64,000 bases of DNA from Thalassospira lucentensis (GTDB lineage Bacteria; Pseudomonadota; Alphaproteobacteria; Rhodospirillales; Thalassospiraceae): positions 4,440,501 through 4,504,500 of the forward strand of contig NZ_CP136684.1 in NCBI RefSeq assembly GCF_032921865.1, given 5' to 3'. The notes under the pieces were generated by a model. The model saw only the letters and a list, made by a program, of their open reading frames with translations, ran no database searches and had not been told where the DNA came from. Positions within the stretch are counted from its first letter, which is position 1. Each line of letters starts with the position of its first letter. This document shows, in pieces, positions 33,598 through 63,342 of the stretch. The position numbers and the translations under genes are program-made.

Positions 33598-33673
33598 GCT
33601 GATGTAGCTCAGCTGGTAGAGCGGCGCATTCGTAATGCGTAGGTCGTAGGTTCAAATCCTATCATCAGCACCA
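33598..33673 (+). tRNA. tRNA-Thr (anticodon CGT)
   Basis: A complete 76-base cloverleaf: acceptor GCTGATG/CATCAGC, D-stem GCTC/GAGC, anticodon stem GCGCA/TGCGT around TTCGTAA (anticodon CGT, reading ACG), T-arm GTAGG-TTCAAAT-CCTAT, and encoded CCA. Confidence 0.97.
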
Positions 33674-33678
33674 CTATA

Positions 33679-33713
33679 ACCCCGTCGGGCGAATAGCCCT
33701 GCGGGGTTTTTTG
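33679..33713 (+). terminator. Terminator of tRNA-Thr
   Basis: ACCCCG (33679-33684) pairs with CGGGGT (33702-33707) with an inner GGGC/GCCC helix, followed by TTTTTT. It separates the tRNA from the R-body locus. Confidence 0.85.
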
Positions 33714-33746: not shown

Positions 33747-33771
33747 GTCACAACCTCCGGTGCTCCCCGTC
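33747..33771 (+). promoter_or_regulatory. ECF-type promoter, R-body regulon site 1
   Basis: GTCACAA (33747-33753), 14 bases, CGTC (33768-33771), 99 bases before the ATG at 33871. Same two-box sequence as five other sites in the locus. Confidence 0.8.
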
Positions 33772-33870
33772 CTTCTGGCATGTGAACCGTCGCAATCCTT
33801 GTGAAATCCGGTTCGGCGCAGGCATGCACCTTCCGCAGCGTTTCGCAAGTGCAACCAGGGGATTGTCAGC

Positions 33871-35673
33871 ATGACCGACAAAGACCACCAGCCCAACAGC
33901 ACTGTAAATGGCACCGCCAGCACCGATAACGGCAATAGTAATCCCCCCAAAAGCCCCTCCGTCGATAACTGGCCATGGGCGCATGTACTGGGTTTCGACA
34001 CGGCAAAGGAATGGGGGCTTGATGCCGTTATTCCCCGCCCGTCTCCGGCATCTCCAAACCCTGATCCGTCCAACACTGCGGCTGGCGGCGACAATCCCGG
34101 TCCGCTTGACGGGCTGTCAGGCCATACGCCATTGGCGGGGCAGAACCTGATTGAGTACGCCATGCAGAAAATTGAACAGGCCTTGGGGCAGCCGATGCAG
34201 GCGGTTCCGCCTCTCTCATCCTATGGCTATGACGAATATGGCAACCTGACCACGACTGCGGGGTCGGCTTCACCGGTACCGGCATCTGCGCCTACGACGC
34301 CCCCCGCGACAGAAAACACGGCACCGAACACATCAACTGCCATACCAACGGACGAAGCTCCAACGGACACAGATGGCAGCATCAATGATCTGGCGAATGA
34401 AGAATTACCACGTGGTTTTGTGGCCCCCGGAGATACGACTGTCTCACCTGCCTCCCCGACCCGCGGGATGTCCAGCACCTCCGGCCCGCAATCCTATCGC
34501 GTCGATCTGATCCGCGAAGACGGCCGCACAACGCGGCTTGAAGGCATTGTAACTTATGGCGATCTGTATCGTCCGCTTTTGCCCGAACTTTCCGGCAATA
34601 CACAGAATGCCGACATATCCGACTGGTCGATCACGCTTGATCAATTACCCAATCCCGGCCCCAGCGGCAGCGACACGGATGCCATTGTCACAGCCCGGCT
34701 TGATGCCGCCGAAATTCCGGCCGACATCCGGCAATGGTCTTTGTCGGTCGGGCCACAAAATATCAATACTGCGCGGCTGGCAATCGATATCCCCGCCACC
34801 CTGCCGTCACTGACGCGTGCCAGCATCATTGGCGGATTACCATCCAGCGAATGGCACATGGTCGCTGCAACACTTGCCGCGGGCGCTGAAAGCACGGACA
34901 CCGGCACCCCGATCCAGGAAAGTACCGAACCCGTCGCCCCGGCAAGCCTTGGCATGGATCAGCAGCTTGGCAGCCCCGACAGCACGCAGGAACCCTACAT
35001 CGCCACCCTGCGCATCACATCAGCGATCACCAGCACCCCGGCGTCGATCCCGGTCCAACTGCAATATACCGGCACCCTGCCAAGCCCGATCCTGCAGGGC
35101 GATGTGCCCCTCACGACGGAAAGCAGCCTGTCACTTCGCATGCAGGTCATCGCACCAACCGATGGCAAATCGGGTGCAACCCTTGTTGCACTGATCCTGC
35201 GCGGGGCTGCGTCGGGCTTCTCAGTCACGGCACAGTTGCGCGGTGATCAGAAAATCTCGACCCCGACCGCGATGCTCGGTTGCGTTGATCCGGGGCAGGA
35301 TACCGAATGCCGTGCCGAAAGCATGATCGCCAATGCGACCTCCAGCCTGCAAACCAGCCTGATCAGTATCACCGATGCCCCCGATGATGACGGGCTCGCC
35401 GCCTATGGCTTCGTCCTGCCCGCCCCGTCGGGTGACGACGACACCGACAACACCGTCCAGGCAGCAAAATCCGCCAAAGCGGATGATCCGGCGCCGACAC
35501 CCCCGGCCAAAACGCCCCCGGCAAAAGGCAAGAGCAAGGCCGTGACTCCAGACACCACCACCGCCACAGACGACACAGACGGTGCCAAGAATGCTGACGA
35601 TGCCGGAGGGACCGATGACACCAGCGGCACCACCGACAACAACACTGGAAAACCGGACAAGGGAGCCTCCTGA
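33871..35673 (+). CDS. Large hypothetical protein of the R-body locus
   Basis: 600 residues with no recognised domain. Residues 1-210 are Pro/Ser/Thr/Asn-rich low complexity with short amphipathic islands (WPWAHVLGFDTAKEWGL; NLIEYAMQKIEQALG). The middle 215-520 is regular and strand-rich (YRVDLIREDGRTTRLEGIV and similar), suggesting a beta-sandwich fold. The last 80 residues are acidic, Lys/Ala/Pro/Asp/Thr low complexity. No signal peptide, so cytoplasmic. AGGGGA precedes the ATG, and an R-body-type ECF promoter lies upstream. TGATG overlap with the next gene shows coupling. It may be a regulator, scaffold or end-cap of R-bodies; function unknown. Confidence 0.7.
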   Translation: MTDKDHQPNSTVNGTASTDNGNSNPPKSPSVDNWPWAHVLGFDTAKEWGLDAVIPRPSPASPNPDPSNTAAGGDNPGPLDGLSGHTPLAGQNLIEYAMQKIEQALGQPMQAVPPLSSYGYDEYGNLTTTAGSASPVPASAPTTPPATENTAPNTSTAIPTDEAPTDTDGSINDLANEELPRGFVAPGDTTVSPASPTRGMSSTSGPQSYRVDLIREDGRTTRLEGIVTYGDLYRPLLPELSGNTQNADISDWSITLDQLPNPGPSGSDTDAIVTARLDAAEIPADIRQWSLSVGPQNINTARLAIDIPATLPSLTRASIIGGLPSSEWHMVAATLAAGAESTDTGTPIQESTEPVAPASLGMDQQLGSPDSTQEPYIATLRITSAITSTPASIPVQLQYTGTLPSPILQGDVPLTTESSLSLRMQVIAPTDGKSGATLVALILRGAASGFSVTAQLRGDQKISTPTAMLGCVDPGQDTECRAESMIANATSSLQTSLISITDAPDDDGLAAYGFVLPAPSGDDDTDNTVQAAKSAKADDPAPTPPAKTPPAKGKSKAVTPDTTTATDDTDGAKNADDAGGTDDTSGTTDNNTGKPDKGAS

Positions 35674-36239
35674 TGACAAGCGGCCCGAACTTTCCCGGCG
35701 TCGAAACGGCAAGCAGCAAAAAGGATGCGGTGAAAAAGGCCTTCAATCAGGAATATCAGGCTACCATGAAGGCAATGGCAAATGCCGCTGATCGCGCCCG
35801 CGCCCAAATTCTTGATCAAAAGCTTGCCGCGGCCAGCCATTCCAGGTCAACACAGGATGCCAAGGCTGCAGTCGCGCAATCCCCATCATCCGGTCAAAGC
35901 CCCGCCAAATCAGGCGGCGCAACAGGCAGCACGCCCCCGTCCGATCCCGGCGCGATGGTTATGATCGAAATCGCCAATGAACTGCGTCGAATCATCGTCG
36001 CGGAAATCGACATGCGCATGAACCATCTCGCCAGACAGGTCGAAGAGGCAATTGCAAGCTCGCTTTCCGCCACGCCAGAGGATGCGACATCGTCGCCGGT
36101 CAAAACCGATGATCAGGTCCCGACCGACACCGCCGCAGACACCTCGGCGAAGCCTGATACCTCAGCCACACCCCTGGCTCAAACGGAACCAGCATTGCCC
36201 GAAAGCTCCCCGGATCCCCAACCACCGGAAAAGGAATGA
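35673..36239 (+). CDS. Small hypothetical protein coupled to the 600-residue R-body-locus protein
   Basis: 188 residues. Two likely amphipathic helices, about 15-60 (VKKAFNQEYQATMKAMANAA) and 100-135 (IEIANELRRIIVAEIDMRMN), are separated by Ser/Gly/Pro-rich linkers and followed by an acidic Pro/Thr tail. Composition and linker style match the upstream protein, so the two probably act together. Its ATG shares a base with the upstream stop. No domain recognised. Confidence 0.65.
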   Translation: MTSGPNFPGVETASSKKDAVKKAFNQEYQATMKAMANAADRARAQILDQKLAAASHSRSTQDAKAAVAQSPSSGQSPAKSGGATGSTPPSDPGAMVMIEIANELRRIIVAEIDMRMNHLARQVEEAIASSLSATPEDATSSPVKTDDQVPTDTAADTSAKPDTSATPLAQTEPALPESSPDPQPPEKE

Positions 36240-36413
36240 TTCGGCATTTTGCCAAAAGTTGCAAAACACCTCTCCGACACGCCACCAGAAGAAGGGGCAC
36301 ACTACCCCAACGGGAATGCAGATAAAGCGGATAAAAAACAATAACTTGAAATAAAAGTGATGCAATTTTTCATCTCGAGAATACAACAACTTTAGATTGC
36401 ATTTTTCTTTTTA

Positions 36414-36438
36414 TTCACAATTCAAACTGCACACCGTC
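36414..36438 (+). promoter_or_regulatory. ECF-type promoter, R-body regulon site 2 (sigma gene autoregulation)
   Basis: TTCACAA (36414-36420), 14 bases, CGTC (36435-36438), 61 bases before the GTG start of the sigma gene. One mismatch to the other sites, in the first base only. Confidence 0.7.
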
Positions 36439-36499
36439 ATAATAGTCGCGAGAGACCTAAACAGCCTTTGGTTGTAATCTTTCTGAGGAGGGGTCCGAA

Positions 36500-37648
36500 G
36501 TGCAGTACGAAAAAAATAGCGAACCGGGACGATCGGAATTATCGGAGAACGAAATCACGTTCGCCAAATCACTAGATGATGCCTTGGAAAGGGCATTAGG
36601 GACAGGAGACAATGTAACATCCATCTGGTCGCATCTCAAAGACGAGCAACGCGCCAGACTGGCTGCGGACTACCTGGCCGCCCTTGATAACAATTCACGT
36701 AAAAGTTGTAATTTCGAGAATACGACCCAACCAGATCCTACCCCGCAGGAACCGCAGGCCGCCACAGAGCCCCCCGCCATTCCCCGCGGATATCCGGCAA
36801 ACTTCAATCCTTTGGCCGGCTTACCAGGGCTGGAGCCATCATCCAACGGACCGAGCCCGACCGATATCATTGCAGGCAGTCTCGGCAACTTTGGCGGCAT
36901 GCCCGGCATGAACGGATTTGCCGGATTAAACGGTCTGGCTGCCCCCGGAAACCCGATGAACCAGATGCAGCGATCCTTGCAGGATGCAATGTCGCTACTG
37001 GGCGATCTCGGTTTCGAACAACCCGCCCCCTGCCAACCACTTGGCACACCGCAATCTTCCCCCGCCCATGCAAGATCATGGCAACCCGATCCATTCGAAA
37101 ACGCAGACGCCTCCGGCATGGAACCGGCTGCCCCAAATTTCTGGCCGCTCTGGATGGATCAACAGGACAGCCTTCTGAAACAATGCCTGAAACTGATGTC
37201 GGGCAATATGGACGACGCGCAGGATGCATTGTCGGAAGCCATGCTCAAGGCATCGGTCAAGTTCGAAGATTCCATGGACGAAATCCGCAATCACCGCGCC
37301 TGGCTTTCCCGGATCGTACATAATGCCTGCATCGATCTGCACCGCCAGAACCGACGCAAGGCGGAATACAAGGAAGAAAACCACGGCACCGCGGATGCCG
37401 CCCTCCCGCCGATTTCCGGTCGCAACGAACCCAGCCCCGAGGAATCCTTCCTCGCGACCGAAATGTTCGACCACCTTGAACGCGCCTTGCGCGCCCTTCC
37501 CGAAAAATTGCGCAAGCCACTTCTGATGCGATGTGTCGAAGACCGCAGCTATGACGATATCGCGGACAATCTCGGACTAAGCAACTGCGCCGTTCGTAAA
37601 CGCGTCCAGCTTGCCCGCGATCATCTGCGCGGTGCCGGTATTCAGTAA
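36500..37648 (+). CDS. ECF-type sigma factor with long N-terminal extension
   Basis: 382 residues beginning at GTG with AGGAGGGG 6 bases upstream. Residues ~1-212 are not sigma-like: an initial charged helix region, then Pro/Asn/Gly-rich linker (FNPLAGLPGLEP, MPGMNGFAGLNGLAAPG). Sigma region 2 lies at ~218-288 (DDAQDALSEAMLKAS, RAWLSRIVHNACIDLHRQNRR) and region 4 at ~325-378 (LPEKLRKPLLMRCVEDRSYD, IADNLGLSNCAVRKRVQLAR). Ordinary ECF factors are ~170-200 residues, so the extension doubles the length. No anti-sigma gene is adjacent; the extension could take its role. It lies between the hypothetical pair and the rebB array and has an ECF-like promoter of its own, so it is the likely master regulator. 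Confidence 0.85.
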   Translation: MQYEKNSEPGRSELSENEITFAKSLDDALERALGTGDNVTSIWSHLKDEQRARLAADYLAALDNNSRKSCNFENTTQPDPTPQEPQAATEPPAIPRGYPANFNPLAGLPGLEPSSNGPSPTDIIAGSLGNFGGMPGMNGFAGLNGLAAPGNPMNQMQRSLQDAMSLLGDLGFEQPAPCQPLGTPQSSPAHARSWQPDPFENADASGMEPAAPNFWPLWMDQQDSLLKQCLKLMSGNMDDAQDALSEAMLKASVKFEDSMDEIRNHRAWLSRIVHNACIDLHRQNRRKAEYKEENHGTADAALPPISGRNEPSPEESFLATEMFDHLERALRALPEKLRKPLLMRCVEDRSYDDIADNLGLSNCAVRKRVQLARDHLRGAGIQ

Positions 37649-37668
37649 CCGCACCCTGATCCGCAACC

Positions 37669-37703
37669 CGGGCAGAAGGGCAAATGCCGTTCTGCCCGTT
37701 TTA
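37669..37703 (+). terminator. Terminator of the sigma gene
   Basis: CGGGCAGAA (37669-37677) pairs with TTCTGCCCG (37690-37698), extended by GGCA/TGCC, followed by TTTT. A second stem, GGCCTGA/TCAGGCC, follows at 37709-37727. Confidence 0.8.
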
Positions 37704-37777
37704 AGACCGGCCTGAAAATGTCAGGCCTCCAAAAGACTTATCAAAGCCTTTTGCTGGCAAAAAAATTCACCCGTCCC

Positions 37778-37802
37778 GTCACAAGCCCGAATTGCCAGCG
37801 TC
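37778..37802 (+). promoter_or_regulatory. ECF-type promoter, R-body regulon site 3
   Basis: GTCACAA (37778-37784), 14 bases, CGTC (37799-37802), upstream of the first rebB copy (ATG 37875). Confidence 0.85.
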
Positions 37803-37874
37803 GATAGGATGAATTCGGGACGGAGAAACCCCGTCAGGATTTCCACCGCAAGCAGCATACGAAGGAGTTTTGAA

Positions 37875-38198
37875 ATGGCGATTCCGACCCCGGTAAACGG
37901 TCAAATCACCGATGCCGTCACCCAGGCAAACGTCAAGGTGCTCGGTGATGCCCCTGCTATGGCCATGGGCTCTATCTTCCAGTCTCTGGCACATTCCACG
38001 GGCATTCTCTATGAAAATGCCGTCAGCGCCCAGCAGCAGCTTGGTATTGCATCCCAGGCCGCCACCAACCAGGGCGTCATCCAGATCTATTCGGTCGACA
38101 CCATGGCCGATGCCGTCGCGACCTCGAAAATCGCGCAAAGCGATGTCCCCGACAACATGCTTTCGCTTCTGACCACGCTTCAGGCTGTCAAAAGCTAA
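37875..38198 (+). CDS. rebB: RebB-family R-body structural protein, copy 1
   Basis: 107 residues. Signature QITDAVTQANVKVLGDAPAM at 10-29, then an alanine/glutamine-rich helical stretch and the C-terminal GVIQIYSVDTMADAVAT block. RebB homologues build R-bodies, rolled protein ribbons first known from Caedibacter killer symbionts, which unroll abruptly on a pH change. GAAGGAG precedes the ATG at 37875; an upstream in-frame start (37809) would run through the promoter. It is very similar to copy 2 (about four of five residues), so one is a recent duplicate. Confidence 0.93.
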   Translation: MAIPTPVNGQITDAVTQANVKVLGDAPAMAMGSIFQSLAHSTGILYENAVSAQQQLGIASQAATNQGVIQIYSVDTMADAVATSKIAQSDVPDNMLSLLTTLQAVKS

Positions 38199-38222
38199 GC
38201 CGCTTCCTCGAAGACCTCCCCG

Positions 38223-38263
38223 ATTGGGCGGCCCGTTTTCCGACCGGCCGCCCAATATCGTTT
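38223..38263 (+). terminator. Terminator-like hairpin after rebB copy 1
   Basis: ATTGGGCGGCC (38223-38233) pairs exactly with GGCCGCCCAAT (38246-38256), followed by ATCGTTT. The U-run is short. Confidence 0.65.
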
Positions 38264-38299
38264 CCCGGTAATTTTGCCCGCAGTTTTTGGCGGTTTGGC

Positions 38300-38324
38300 G
38301 TCACAAAGGCCCATCGTCCCCGTC
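38300..38324 (+). promoter_or_regulatory. ECF-type promoter, R-body regulon site 4
   Basis: GTCACAA (38300-38306), 14 bases, CGTC (38321-38324), upstream of rebB copy 2 (ATG 38401). Confidence 0.85.
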
Positions 38325-38400
38325 AAATGACTGATCGCCGCGCACCACGCGGAACGGGCCGGTTTCCGGCATATTTTTCCAGGCAACCAGGAGACAGATT

Positions 38401-38736
38401 ATGGCTGATAATACCCCGGTCAATGGCATGATTACCGATGCAGTGACCCAGGCCAATGTCAAAGTACTGGGCGATGCACCGGCCATGGCCATGGGCTCGC
38501 TGTTTCAGTCGCTGGCACATTCCCACGGCATTCTCTATGAAAATGCCGTCAGCACCCAGCAGCAGGTCGGCATCTCGTCGCAGGCTGCAACCAACCAGGG
38601 CGTCATTCAGGTCTATTCCGTCGACACCATGGCTGGTGCCGTCGCAACGCAGAAAATCGCCACCAGCGATGTTCCGGACAACATGCTTGCATTGCTGTCC
38701 GCCCTGAAGGCAACCACCGGCACCGCAGTGTCGTAA
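38401..38736 (+). CDS. rebB: RebB-family R-body structural protein, copy 2
   Basis: 111 residues with the same plan as copy 1: TPVNGMITDAVTQANVKVLG, a helical Ala/Gln-rich middle, and GVIQVYSVDTMAGAVATQK. It differs mainly at the N-terminus (MADN instead of MAIP) and in a short Thr/Ala tail. GGAG lies 8 bases before the ATG. It has its own ECF-type promoter and a strong terminator, so it forms a single-gene transcription unit. Confidence 0.93.
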   Translation: MADNTPVNGMITDAVTQANVKVLGDAPAMAMGSLFQSLAHSHGILYENAVSTQQQVGISSQAATNQGVIQVYSVDTMAGAVATQKIATSDVPDNMLALLSALKATTGTAVS

Positions 38737-38764
38737 TCCTTCATTGGTTTCGCCGCCCGAACCG

Positions 38765-38797
38765 GCCCGGCATGCAAAAGCTTGCCGGGCTTTTTTT
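38765..38797 (+). terminator. Terminator after rebB copy 2
   Basis: GCCCGGCA (38765-38772) pairs with TGCCGGGC (38783-38790), followed by seven T's. The next ECF-type promoter starts three bases later. Confidence 0.9.
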
Positions 38798-38799
38798 GC

Positions 38800-38824
38800 G
38801 TCACAAATTTCGTCCTTCACCGTC
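38800..38824 (+). promoter_or_regulatory. ECF-type promoter, R-body regulon site 5
   Basis: GTCACAA (38800-38806), 14 bases, CGTC (38821-38824), upstream of the 99-residue reb-like gene (ATG 38863). Confidence 0.85.
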
Positions 38825-38862
38825 ATTGCGGTGTAATCCACGCGCCAGCCAAGGAGACCGTG

Positions 38863-39162
38863 ATGGCACCGGCAAAAACCGACCCGTCCGACACCAATCC
38901 CGACGCAACCAAAATCGCCGACGCGATGATCAACCTGCAGGATGAGGTATCCCACCAGATCAGTGATGCTGTCAGTCTGGTCAACGTTGGCACCATCGGC
39001 ATCGGCCCGGCTTACGCCACCCTGCAGGCCATGCTGGCCCAGTCACAGGCGCAGGGTGTTCTGATGGCCAATATGGTTTCCGGTCAACGGCAGCTCTCGA
39101 TGACTGGCATGGCGACCCTGACCAAAAGCATCGAACAGATGATGTCGCGTCCTAACCGATAA
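38863..39162 (+). CDS. Divergent RebB-like protein, sub-family B (99 residues)
   Basis: Residues 1-35 are a charged lead (DPSDTNPDATKIADAMINL). Then QISDAVSLVNVGTIGIGPAY replaces the usual ITDAVTQ block, followed by AMLAQSQAQGVLMANMVSGQ. The Gln/Ala pattern and the ISDAV start mark it as a diverged RebB relative. It lacks the YSVDTM block. AAGGAG precedes the ATG at 38863. It pairs with the next gene, which shares the AQAQGVL.ANMV segment and lies 11 bases downstream, so they are co-transcribed. Confidence 0.75.
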   Translation: MAPAKTDPSDTNPDATKIADAMINLQDEVSHQISDAVSLVNVGTIGIGPAYATLQAMLAQSQAQGVLMANMVSGQRQLSMTGMATLTKSIEQMMSRPNR

Positions 39163-39173
39163 GGATCAAAACG

Positions 39174-39419
39174 ATGAGCTCTCCGCGCGAAGTCGACGAA
39201 CAGATCACCGATGGCGTGACCCAGACCAACACTACCGTCATTGGCACCGCGCCGGCCATGGGAACCATGCAGACCTACCTGTCGCAGGCACAGGCACAGG
39301 GCGTACTGTTTGCCAACATGGTCAACGAACAGCAACAGCTTGCGGTGGCCAGCCTGGCAACCACCATGGAATGCGCCCGCAATACGCTGGCCATCGGAGA
39401 CAAGGGCCCAAAGTCCTAA
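39174..39419 (+). CDS. Divergent RebB-like protein, sub-family B (81 residues)
   Basis: 81 residues: EQITDGVTQTNTTVIGTAPAM (the RebB block), then MQTYLSQAQAQGVLFANMVN and a short tail. It shares the AQAQGVL.ANMV segment with the preceding gene. AAGGAT precedes the ATG. No promoter of its own. A possible frameshifted small gene starts just after its stop. Confidence 0.78.
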   Translation: MSSPREVDEQITDGVTQTNTTVIGTAPAMGTMQTYLSQAQAQGVLFANMVNEQQQLAVASLATTMECARNTLAIGDKGPKS

Positions 39420-39425
39420 GGGGGG

Positions 39426-39586
39426 ATGACAGCGGGACAGCAAAGCGCCCCCCCACCCTCAAGAGCGCACCGCCCCCCGCCCCCGTACCACCACCGGAAG
39501 ATCCCGACAAACATGTCGAGCTGACCGACGAGGAACTCAAACGTCAGCAGGAAGAATACGAAAAACAGAGACAGGCCCAGCAATAG
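39426..39586 (+). pseudogene. Small Pro-rich/acidic gene apparently split by a -1 shift at a C7 tract
   Basis: An ATG at 39426, preceded by AAGG and G's, opens MTAGQQSAPPP and reaches seven C's at 39448-39454. Staying in that frame gives nonsense ending after 32 codons. Shifting back one base at the tract gives a plausible protein with PPPEDPDKHVELTDEELKRQ and a charged helix ending at TAG 39584-39586. The second frame alone would have to start at ATG 39371 inside the preceding gene without a ribosome site. Possible explanations are slippage-based phase variation, programmed -1 shift, or a sequencing error in the C run. Confidence 0.45.
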
Positions 39587-39595
39587 GAACATTTT

Positions 39596-39611
39596 AACCG
39601 GCGCGCCGGTT
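39596..39611. repeat. Perfect 16-bp palindrome before the 75-residue reb gene
   Basis: AACCGGCGCGCCGGTT, preceded by TTTT and without a following T-run. It could be a protein binding site or a hairpin with a minimal loop. Confidence 0.6.
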
Positions 39612-39656
39612 CTGATCGTGCCTGCGGGCACCCATCCAAGGCAAAGGCATGATGTC

Positions 39657-39884
39657 ATGAGCGATATCGTCAATCCGCAAATCACCGATGCCGTGACACA
39701 GACCAACGTCAAGGTGCTGGGCGAAAGTCCTGCACAGGCGGTATCGATCGCCCTGCAATCGCATTCCCATGCAACGGGTCTGGCCATGGAAAACGCCACC
39801 CTGACACAGGGAAACATGCAACAGGTCGCCAATACCGCAACTTCGAAGCTGGTGGCAATGATCACCGCCCAGGCCGGTGGCTAA
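39657..39884 (+). CDS. Short RebB-family protein, sub-family C (75 residues)
   Basis: 75 residues: PQITDAVTQTNVKVLGESPA, then a Gln/Ala-rich helical stretch ending AMITAQAGG. It lacks the C-terminal YSVDTM block of the full-length copies. The closest relative is the 85-residue copy at 40358. The ATG at 39657 is chosen so that the protein begins at the family start; AAAGG lies 12 bases upstream. A weak hairpin follows, then the next ECF-type promoter. Confidence 0.85.
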   Translation: MSDIVNPQITDAVTQTNVKVLGESPAQAVSIALQSHSHATGLAMENATLTQGNMQQVANTATSKLVAMITAQAGG

Positions 39885-39907
39885 GGAACGCCCCGTTCGG
39901 GAATTTT

Positions 39908-39932
39908 GTCACAAAGATCAATCATCTGCGTC
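39908..39932 (+). promoter_or_regulatory. ECF-type promoter, R-body regulon site 6
   Basis: GTCACAA (39908-39914), 14 bases, CGTC (39929-39932), upstream of the third full-length rebB (ATG 39975). Confidence 0.85.
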
Positions 39933-39974
39933 AAAACGGGTACGGTCATCGTGACCGCCAAATCGGAGGAAGAA

Positions 39975-40298
39975 ATGGCTATTCCAACCCCAGTGAACGG
40001 TCAGATCACAGATGCGGTGACCCAGACATCGGTCAGCGTTCTCGGCTCGGCCCCGGCGAACGCCATGGGCATGATCTATCAAAGTGCCGCCCACTCGACA
40101 TCGATCCTGTTCCAGAATGCCATTCAGGCCCAGCAACAGGCTTCCATGTGCTCGCAGGCTGCCACCAATATGGGTGTCATGCAGCTTTATTCGGTCAATA
40201 CCATGGCCGGGGCACAGGCAACCGCCAAGATGTCGCGATCGGACAACAGCAATACACTTCTGACCCTTTTGGTCATTTTGGCAGCAACTCGCCGTTAG
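39975..40298 (+). CDS. rebB: RebB-family R-body structural protein, copy 3 (full length)
   Basis: 107 residues starting MAIPTPVNGQITDAVTQTS, the same first ten residues as copy 1, but clearly diverged later: IYQSAAHSTSILFQNAIQAQ and GVMQLYSVNTMAGAQAT. It keeps all three blocks of full-length RebB. GGAGGA lies 5 bases before the ATG. It probably heads a short operon with the 85-residue copy and the 194-residue protein, since those have no ECF-type site of their own. Confidence 0.92.
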   Translation: MAIPTPVNGQITDAVTQTSVSVLGSAPANAMGMIYQSAAHSTSILFQNAIQAQQQASMCSQAATNMGVMQLYSVNTMAGAQATAKMSRSDNSNTLLTLLVILAATRR

Positions 40299-40357: not shown

Positions 40358-40615
40358 ATGGCAGACAACACCCCGGTTAATTCCCAGATTACGGACGCGG
40401 TCACACAGACCAACGTCAAGGTTCTGGGCGAAGCTCCGGCACAGGCAATGGGGCTCGTGTATCAGACGATGGCACATTCCATCAGTCTTTCGATGCAGAA
40501 CGCCATGCAAACCCAGGGCGGCCTGCAACAGATTGGCAACGCCGTAACTTCCAGCGCGTGTCGCATGATCCTCGACAGCACCGGTGGCGGCATGGGTGGC
40601 GGCGGAAAAACCTGA
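40358..40615 (+). CDS. Short RebB-family protein, sub-family C (85 residues)
   Basis: 85 residues: TPVNSQITDAVTQTNVKVLG, then a Met/Gln-rich middle (MAHSISLSMQNAMQTQG) and a glycine-rich end (GGGMGGGGKT). Like the 75-residue copy it lacks the YSVDTM block. GAGGG lies 6 bases before the ATG. Confidence 0.87.
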   Translation: MADNTPVNSQITDAVTQTNVKVLGEAPAQAMGLVYQTMAHSISLSMQNAMQTQGGLQQIGNAVTSSACRMILDSTGGGMGGGGKT

Positions 40616-40702
40616 CGCTGCCAACATACGCACCACGCCCGAATACCCGGAAAGTTTACGCCCTGAATTTGAAAATGCCCCGTTAACGCAATGAGGCCCG
40701 TC

Positions 40703-41287
40703 ATGGCAGATGATACCGATCCCAACGCATCCAATACGGCTGATAGCAGCACCCCGCCCGCCGCCGGTGCGGACAGTTCGACGGATACCTCCACAGACGG
40801 CTCACCGGGAAGTTCGGCAGCAAGCCCCTCTTCGGATGGGGCGTCGAGCCCGGGATCCTCTGGGGCATCGGGTGAATCTTTCGATAGCCCGTCTTCGACC
40901 AACAATCCCCCGTCGGGTGGCGGCGGCACCAGTTCACCCCCACTTAGCACCGCCCTTAATCCGCAAATCGTCCAGGCGGTCGGCACGACAAATCATGCCG
41001 TACTGAACGGTGCTGGTCCGGGCGCAAACGGGATTGCCTATCAAAAGGTCGCACAGGCCGCCGCCTATGCCGTACAGGACAGCACCGATTACATGCGCAA
41101 CATCATGTCGATGGCATCCGCCACAACCGGTGTGGCCCTGCAAAAAATGCTGGTGGAAAAGAAGACCGATCCCTACGCCGATATCATCAAGGCAGCGACA
41201 CAGGCTGTCACCGACGCCCAGCAGACATTTACCAGCGTCGGCACCGCTTCAAGCAGCGTGGTCAAGGATTTCGACAGTATGGCGTAA
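40703..41287 (+). CDS. Long RebB-like protein with Ser/Gly/Pro-rich N-terminus
   Basis: 194 residues. Residues 1-80 are low complexity Ser/Gly/Asp/Pro/Thr. Residues ~83-140 resemble the RebB block (NPQIVQAVGTTNHAVLNGAG) followed by an Ala-rich helix (YQKVAQAAAYAVQDS). The last 50 residues are a further Ala/Thr helix. The ATG at 40703 is preferred to 40691 because GAGG lies 6 bases before it and it restores the MAD- start of other copies. A hairpin overlaps its stop codon. It may correspond to a larger accessory R-body component. Confidence 0.75.
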   Translation: MADDTDPNASNTADSSTPPAAGADSSTDTSTDGSPGSSAASPSSDGASSPGSSGASGESFDSPSSTNNPPSGGGGTSSPPLSTALNPQIVQAVGTTNHAVLNGAGPGANGIAYQKVAQAAAYAVQDSTDYMRNIMSMASATTGVALQKMLVEKKTDPYADIIKAATQAVTDAQQTFTSVGTASSSVVKDFDSMA

Positions 41288-63235: not shown

Positions 63236-63260
63236 GTCACAAATACCGGATGTAACCGTC
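63236..63260 (+). promoter_or_regulatory. ECF-type promoter identical in both boxes and spacing to the R-body sites
   Basis: GTCACAA (63236-63242), 14 bases, CGTC (63257-63260). It lies after the oxidase operon and points at a hairpin plus terminator instead of a gene. Confidence 0.6.
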
Positions 63261-63265
63261 TACCT

Positions 63266-63327
63266 GCTGACACTTGTCAGCAACTCCGGCCCGGCAGAAA
63301 GGTCCCCCACCCCTGCCGGGCTTTTTT
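63266..63327 (+). ncRNA. Predicted ~60-nt small RNA
   Basis: From the expected start site the transcript would open with a hairpin (GCTGACA at 63266-63272, TGTCAGC at 63275-63281). It then has a short single strand and ends in the terminator at 63289-63327, whose loop is C-rich (GGTCCCCCACCCC). No reading frame is present. C-rich loops pair with ribosome binding sites in several alphaproteobacterial small RNAs. Expression is not shown. Confidence 0.45.
63289..63327 (+). terminator. Rho-independent terminator
   Basis: GCCCGGCAG (63289-63297) pairs with CTGCCGGGC (63313-63321), followed by six T's. It ends both the cio operon and the predicted small RNA. Confidence 0.9.
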
Positions 63328-63342
63328 ATTCGGGTCTACTGA

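Follow-up and report, generated by a model that had tools for sequence, protein, structure and literature searches.

R-bodies are coiled protein ribbons, large polymers that are linked to the killing of eukaryotic cells, and only for few species is it understood how their formation is turned on. The present study deals with a reb locus, in which R-body genes occur together with the gene of a sigma factor of the extracytoplasmic function (ECF) type, in a stretch of 64,000 nucleotides of the genome of Thalassospira lucentensis (contig NZ_CP136684.1, positions 4,440,501 to 4,504,500), referred to as the window in the following. Genes of this locus share a two-box promoter signature, TCACAA and CGTC with a spacer of 14 bases (TCACAA-N14-CGTC, hereafter the core).

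In Pseudomonas aeruginosa PA14, the gene of the sigma factor FecI2 lies inside the reb cluster (PMC8322103, PMC4362757), as does the sigma gene described here. FecI2 is required for the activity of the rebP1 promoter, and a reb reporter was on in 0.26% of the PA14 cells, in dependence on both FecI2 and RcgA (PMC8322103); the additional need for this transcription factor is a feature of the PA14 system. A de novo FecI2 promoter logo has been published, too (Fig. 2 of PMC4362757, Schulz et al. 2015). We set the Thalassospira sigma factor beside FecI2 by description, not by logo or sequence, and its scores are far below the cut-offs of the FecI models of NCBIfam (45.6 bits vs 260 for NF041727 and 48.2 vs 185 for NF007232). 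Also by description only, it can be likened to RC1_2001 of Rhodospirillum centenum, a sigma factor whose gene, judged by its locus number, adjoins the R-body operon RC1_1993-1999. RC1_2001 and this operon both rise in cyst formation, RC1_2001 is activated by cyclic GMP (cGMP)-CgrA, and it has been reported to be necessary for encystment (PMC4340629, PMC4681086). In Group 2 reb loci, the sigma-like gene HP2.3 is often associated with reb and has been suggested to be a regulator; the word promoter is absent from the main text of that article (PMC3583457). Beyond the FecI2 logo, the accessible parts of the open-licence literature searched contained no promoter motif of a sigma factor for R-bodies.

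In regard to the promoter, the ECF41 family has TCACA in the -35 and CGTC in the -10 element, like the sites described here. However, the ECF41 promoter reads TGTCACA-N16(+/-1)-CGTC, with a -35 element published as ECF41-specific, and ECF41 proteins carry a C-terminal SnoaL-type extension and have a COE gene as target (PMC3426412). The Thalassospira protein ends after sigma4 and is extended at its N-terminus; common to its sites is TCACAA-N14. A sequence-only reading that preceded this analysis had called CGTC with a GTCACA-like -35 box a known ECF promoter type. This is correct in view of ECF41, but the sigma factor of the locus lacks the extension that defines this group.

We think it very probable (about 0.88) that the locus sigma factor reads the core and thereby activates a private regulon made up of its own gene, hyp1-hyp2 and four reb units. 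The ECF-type sigma factor (36500) would guide RNA polymerase to the -35 box TCACAA and the -10 box CGTC, 14 bases apart, in front of the sigma gene, hyp1-hyp2, reb1, reb2, reb3-reb5 and reb6 onward. Direct recognition of the sites by this sigma factor is what we infer, and the extent of each transcription unit is a prediction. The sequence-only reading had proposed the same set of targets, and the genomic tests speak in favor of it.

The six copies named in that reading exist on the plus strand as described, five of them as exact GTCACAA-N14-CGTC and the sixth, before the sigma gene, as TTCACAA variant with one mismatch (P1 to P6 in Table 1). The distance of 39-100 bases to the gene starts was right as well (the distances in Table 1 are counted from CGTC). 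The list was not complete, since it lacked a further exact copy (63236) and a copy with one mismatch (42137), the latter inside a cyclase gene on the opposite strand. Three sites were said to lie directly after terminator-like hairpins, and this holds only in part. A scan of the plus strand for such hairpins gave one relevant hit (33695-33708, 38 bases before the site at 33747). Just before the site at 38800, a stem (CCCGGCA/TGCCGGG) with seven T behind it is clear by eye, its loop exceeding the limits of the scan, and the hairpin before the site at 39908 is weak by eye.

The core occurs seven times in the window vs 0.15 expected occurrences, and none of 100 shuffles reached this number. The whole genome of 4.73 Mb contains 17 core sites, six of them within the 6.2-kb interval of the reb locus, a clustering with P about 6e-14 under uniform placement. 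Based on the base composition of the window, 8.5 core sites are expected genome-wide, and the other 11 are therefore near background; the reversed pattern, scanned as a control, gave two matches. Thus, the motif is not common apart from the locus, which had been named as a possible objection. Allowing one mismatch in the 11-base motif leaves almost no excess over the control (71 vs 63 matches), and with two mismatches 27 matches were counted in the window vs 17.5 expected. With such counts near background, loose matches mean little.

Boxes, spacing, positions, conservation and co-inheritance with the sigma gene can be observed directly in related genomes. The sigma gene is encoded in all 29 Thalassospira genomes searched; RebB genes were found in 24 of them and none in the other five. 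From each of the 24 reb loci, a stretch reaching from -3.5 to +5.5 kb relative to the sigma match was examined. In these stretches, TCACAA and CGTC are spaced by 14 bases 127 times in sense and never in antisense orientation; all other spacers between 8 and 22, fourteen in number, together gave four sense matches and one antisense match. There are four to six sites per locus and all 127 precede a gene of the locus: 124 could be assigned unit by unit, and the remaining three lie before the sigma gene (two) and reb3 (one). An exact core is present upstream of reb1, reb2 and reb6 in 24/24 genomes each, with a constant distance of the reb6 site in 23/24. Upstream of reb3 it is exact in 22/24 genomes and has one mismatch in one, and the unscored genome has an exact core as well (L082:10334). 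The sigma gene is preceded by a site in all 29 genomes (25 exact, four with one mismatch); the unit-by-unit assignment had left two of them without a score, as only part of the protein was covered by the match. Some genomes possess extra reb copies, three of which have a one-mismatch site. No site was detected for hyp2, reb4, reb7 and r8 in the 24 reb-bearing genomes, and reb5 has one one-mismatch match in one genome.

Within orthologous sites of the sigma gene, reb1, reb2, reb3 and reb6, identity over all pairs amounts to 95-100% in the -35 box and 100% in the -10 box, compared to 39-52% in the spacer and 36-56% in the upstream flank, though this footprinting included only rows with no or one core mismatch, a choice that works in favor of the boxes. 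The base before TCACAA is G in 56%, A in 22% and T in 22% of 129 exact-core sites. A further conserved feature is found at the beginning of two leaders: the first bases of the reb1 leader (37803-37874) show 75% all-pairs identity vs 45% upstream of the promoter, and those of the reb6 leader (39933-39974) 69% vs 36%. It is possible that these leader starts serve translational control.

The signature is not restricted to the genus. Our search covered a sample of 297 genomes from the order, the 29 of Thalassospira among them, and detected a sigma ortholog (cut-off E<=1e-22) in seven others, six from one family (f22, 46-52% identical) and one from another (f15, 44%). In f22, the reb genes are opposite in strand to the sigma gene, and in five genomes the reb strand carries altogether 21 N14 sites. 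The distance between the first base of such a site and the following in-frame start codon in a downstream open reading frame (ORF) is 45-111 bases. In the sixth genome, the contig piece ends early and has no reb-strand site in it. The comparison with other genomes that had been suggested as a check is therefore in line with the proposal, as the promoters recur in 24/24 reb-bearing Thalassospira genomes and follow reb to the opposite strand in f22. Upstream of the f22 sigma gene we found TCACAA-N15-CGTC in five of six genomes and TCACAG-N14-CGTC in the sixth, and 5/6 have a further N14 site before a short ORF, 2.1-2.4 kb upstream of the sigma match. The f15 genome has TCACAA-N15-CGTC upstream of the sigma gene and an N15 site also before an upstream ORF, with no reb gene in the 11.5 kb examined. 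Among spacers of 10-20 bases in these seven loci, there are only three matches besides 14 and 15, all of them with 11 bases.

The sigma protein consists of an N-terminal extension of about 220 amino acids followed by sigma2 and sigma4 (Sigma70_r2 at residues 225-286 and Sigma70_r4_2 at 326-376, both over the cut-off). As no sigma3 family was recognized by Pfam and TIGR02937 is over its cut-off, it has the composition of an ECF (group 4) sigma factor. It ends six residues past the sigma4 match, without C-terminal extension and without a SnoaL family as in ECF41. The region-4 stretch G[LM][ST]NC[AT]VRKR[VI]QLAR is common to 15 aligned orthologs from the three families, which would fit one recognition helix reading one -35 box. 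The N-terminal extension (36500-37140) contains the short motif SPTDIIAGSL, which appears as SPADIIARSL in f22 and in weaker form in f15, while the remainder diverges; it is not evident in two aligned sequences from genomes without reb genes (L084, L086). An AlphaFold model from 11 sequences had a mean predicted local distance difference test (pLDDT) score of 44 and was not used.

The promoter of the sigma gene differs from the others. ATA[AC]T follows CGTC in 29/29 sigma promoters vs 0/100 exact reb-side sites, and in P2 this results in a sigma70-like TTCACA-N18-CATAAT with 10/12 consensus matches, whereas the same scan of the window gave no sigma70-like match for P1 and P3-P6. Upstream of the f22 sigma gene, CGTC is followed by bases that form no CATAAT, and as far as seen this composite promoter appears to be a trait of Thalassospira. 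We suggest that P2 is also read by the housekeeping sigma factor (TTCACA-N18-CATA[AC]T), which would provide a basal level of the locus sigma factor. The latter would then amplify itself and fire the reb units, whose promoters, having no second reading, would stay silent until it accumulates. Such a seed-then-amplify layout would give a threshold switch.

Table 1. Features of the reb locus and exact motif copies in the window
Feature	Position	Strand	Remarks
tRNA-Thr gene	33598-33673		anticodon CGT; reb locus starts directly after
P1	33747-33771	+	exact GTCACAA-N14-CGTC, after tRNA-Thr, 99 nucleotides upstream of hyp1
hyp1	33871-35673	+	600 amino acids, no family match
hyp2	35673-36239	+	188 amino acids; start overlaps hyp1 end; own site in 0/24
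P2	36414-36443	+	sigma gene promoter TTCACAA-N14-CGTC, overlapping sigma70-like TTCACA-N18-CATAAT
ECF-type sigma factor gene	36500-37648	+	382 amino acids, GTG start; CGTC-to-start 61 bases
P3	37778-37802	+	exact motif, 72 nucleotides upstream of reb1
reb1	37875-38198	+	RebB domain
P4	38300-38324	+	exact motif, 76 nucleotides upstream of reb2
reb2	38401-38736	+	RebB domain
P5	38800-38824	+	exact motif, directly after hairpin with T-run, 38 nucleotides upstream of reb3
reb3	38863-39162	+	RebB domain
reb4	39174-39419	+	RebB; without own site
reb5	39657-39884	+	RebB; without own site
P6	39908-39932	+	exact motif, 42 nucleotides upstream of reb6
reb6	39975-40298	+	RebB domain
reb7	40358-40615	+	RebB; without own site
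last locus gene	40691-41287	+	198 amino acids, no Pfam match, no site
exact motif copy	63236-63260	+	after cyd gene set, before hairpins

It is also conceivable, that an ECF41-type sigma factor encoded elsewhere in the genome reads these promoters and that the proximity of the locus sigma gene is a coincidence, but we regard this as very unlikely. An ECF41-type relative is indeed present in 29/29 Thalassospira genomes, and counted from TGTCACA the spacing would be 15, which is inside the 16+/-1 of ECF41. TCACA and CGTC are shared with ECF41; the TG, however, is not conserved, as many sites read CGTCACAA, ATTCACAA or GATCACAA. Moreover, the motif precedes the locus sigma gene itself in all 29 genomes. 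It is also present in f22 and f15, where an ECF41-type relative was found in 1/6 and 0/1 genomes, respectively (query: one of the two ECF41-type proteins of T. lucentensis, cut-off E<=1e-25; one f22 genome is 67% complete). Since the motif occurs in families where such a relative was mostly not found, ECF41 is probably not needed; cross-talk of ECF41 at P1 and P6 is possible. Other reb clusters use the regulators RebR and PraR (PMC5527310) or RcgA beside FecI2 (PMC8322103), and together with the sigma70-like reading of P2 this could mean that the boxes are bound by a DNA-binding regulator instead of forming a promoter, and that housekeeping polymerase transcribes the reb genes. The rigid spacing of 14 bases, the invariable sense orientation at 38-99 nucleotides before the starts in the window, the ECF sigma gene found in each locus and the five promoters without sigma70-like elements render this highly improbable. 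The reb genes are paralogs, and recent duplication of reb units might have spread the motif. However, the same boxes stand before non-reb genes (sigma, hyp1) and at an unlinked site, and they are fixed while spacers and flanks vary among units and species, so that duplication as the only reason for the common motif is scarcely credible.

Some observations weigh against recognition of all these promoters by the locus sigma factor. P1 and P6 fit TGTCACA, and the genome encodes two ECF41-type sigma factors, with weak SnoaL_2 extensions below the Pfam cut-off. The weakest unit is hyp1, with an exact core upstream in 7/24 genomes and one mismatch in 12/24; in the remaining 5/24 the site is gone even if one mismatch is permitted, and most of the one-mismatch cases come from a stretch of several hundred bases, the N-terminus of hyp1 being unaligned. 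Most sigma promoters of f22 and f15 have a spacer of 15 and not of 14 bases, and the sigma70 reading of P2 is derived from the consensus only. Outside the order, seven reb loci from six genomes were considered (G374, with one below-cut-off match containing stops, was left out), and six of the seven have no such site. The remaining one belongs to G312, a genome of another order, where an exact GTCACAA-N14-CGTC stands about 178 nucleotides before a reb start. No sigma ortholog was detected in any of these seven loci (19 kb for G312), while the positive controls were found. Since a site occurs in only one of seven, the code does not hold for R-bodies in general. For Thalassospira, the comparison of genomes strongly supports that the regulon signature is real.

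The five Thalassospira genomes without reb genes (L084-L088) form one clade, which in a single-gene tree is nested among reb-bearing ones, and loss of the reb genes is therefore the simplest history. All five kept the sigma gene with an exact site of its own, and 4/5 keep a site between tRNA-Thr and sigma gene at the place of P1. An ORF that resembles the cyclase by eye still adjoins the sigma gene in all five. A conserved site that is not linked to the locus (contig C2:1514431) lies downstream of a response-regulator gene, which we take to be of the OmpR type, in 29/29 Thalassospira genomes (20 exact, eight with one mismatch and one with two). Taking the best match per genome without a mismatch filter, the identity is 100% in the -10 box, 91% in the -35 box, 35% in the spacer and 45% upstream. 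Where examined, the site points at the 3' end of a gene that is presumably yggS-like. TTATCCACA, which we take to be the DnaA-box consensus, is found 16 (15 genomes) or 17 bases (eight genomes) after the CGTC in 23/29 genomes, none of them reb-less.

The sequence downstream of the unlinked site is not conserved, no protein or RNA family was recognized there and no conserved ORF was visible by eye. A small RNA was considered and rejected, as Rfam gave no match at gathering strength (best E 0.013, apparently on the strand opposite to the site). Outside the genus, none of 20 response-regulator loci (24 genomes, four without match) has the site, exact or with one mismatch, within 400 bases downstream of the gene. 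Because the sigma gene and its promoter persist without reb in five genomes and one conserved site is unlinked, R-body sigma regulon, the name given in the sequence-only reading, is probably too narrow. One could go further and assume that the protein is not mainly an R-body sigma factor. It might be a conserved self-amplifying switch with its own gene and the unlinked promoter as core outputs and R-bodies as an accessory output lost in one clade. The dual-read promoter would then make this switch bistable, only a few cells would build R-bodies, and there might be a tie to cell cycle or dormancy. We consider this wider interpretation possible, though rather doubtful.

Most of the remaining core sites of the genome were viewed only by their position against neighboring ORFs. 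The first base of a second genome-wide core site (L129) lies 41 bases before an ORF of 167 amino acids; a near-identical copy exists in G027, and no L129-like spacer was found among the rows of the other five genomes compared. The copy at 63236 is followed by a perfect hairpin, TGCTGACACTTGTCAGCA, and then by a terminator-like hairpin (63236-63330, two hairpins and a T-run). For comparison, the corresponding stretch was taken from 20/28 relatives, 19 of which show cydB. The region after cydB contains an exact core in four of these (G007, G028, G018, G027), all of them close genomes, and in none of the other 15, with a one-mismatch match just after cydB in G014. As a second target, this copy was therefore rejected, being present in only five close genomes and judged to be due to chance or confined to a close clade; the exact copy is probably a chance occurrence.

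Concerning the neighboring genes, tRNA-Thr(CGT) is present in the loci of 8/8 relatives scanned with ARAGORN. The flanking genes were scanned in part for families, which revealed RebB in seven downstream genes; all seven reb genes scanned are over the Pfam RebB cut-off, and there are seven RebB matches in the genome. No family was recognized for hyp1 and hyp2 by family profile scans, which included no search aimed at FecR or TonB receptors. After the reb locus, on the opposite strand, follows the cyclase gene (Guanylate_cyc). Since this cyclase adjoins the locus and cGMP-CgrA activates the sigma factor of R. centenum, a cyclic-nucleotide input to the Thalassospira sigma factor is plausible.

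That a sigma factor acts on reb genes is known in kind. The accessible parts of the literature searched made no mention of the proposed code of this sigma factor, of its occurrence in three families, of the composite promoter or of the sites independent of reb. Reading such a two-box code from the sequence would allow a direct test of which genes are part of this programme in environmental marine bacteria. It also appears that a sigma factor of different architecture uses a -35 element described as ECF41-specific. The proposed composite logic of housekeeping seed and self-amplification is testable base by base. Finally, the fact that the sigma gene has been kept in genomes lacking reb, together with the conservation of an unlinked site, points to a further output of this sigma factor beyond reb.

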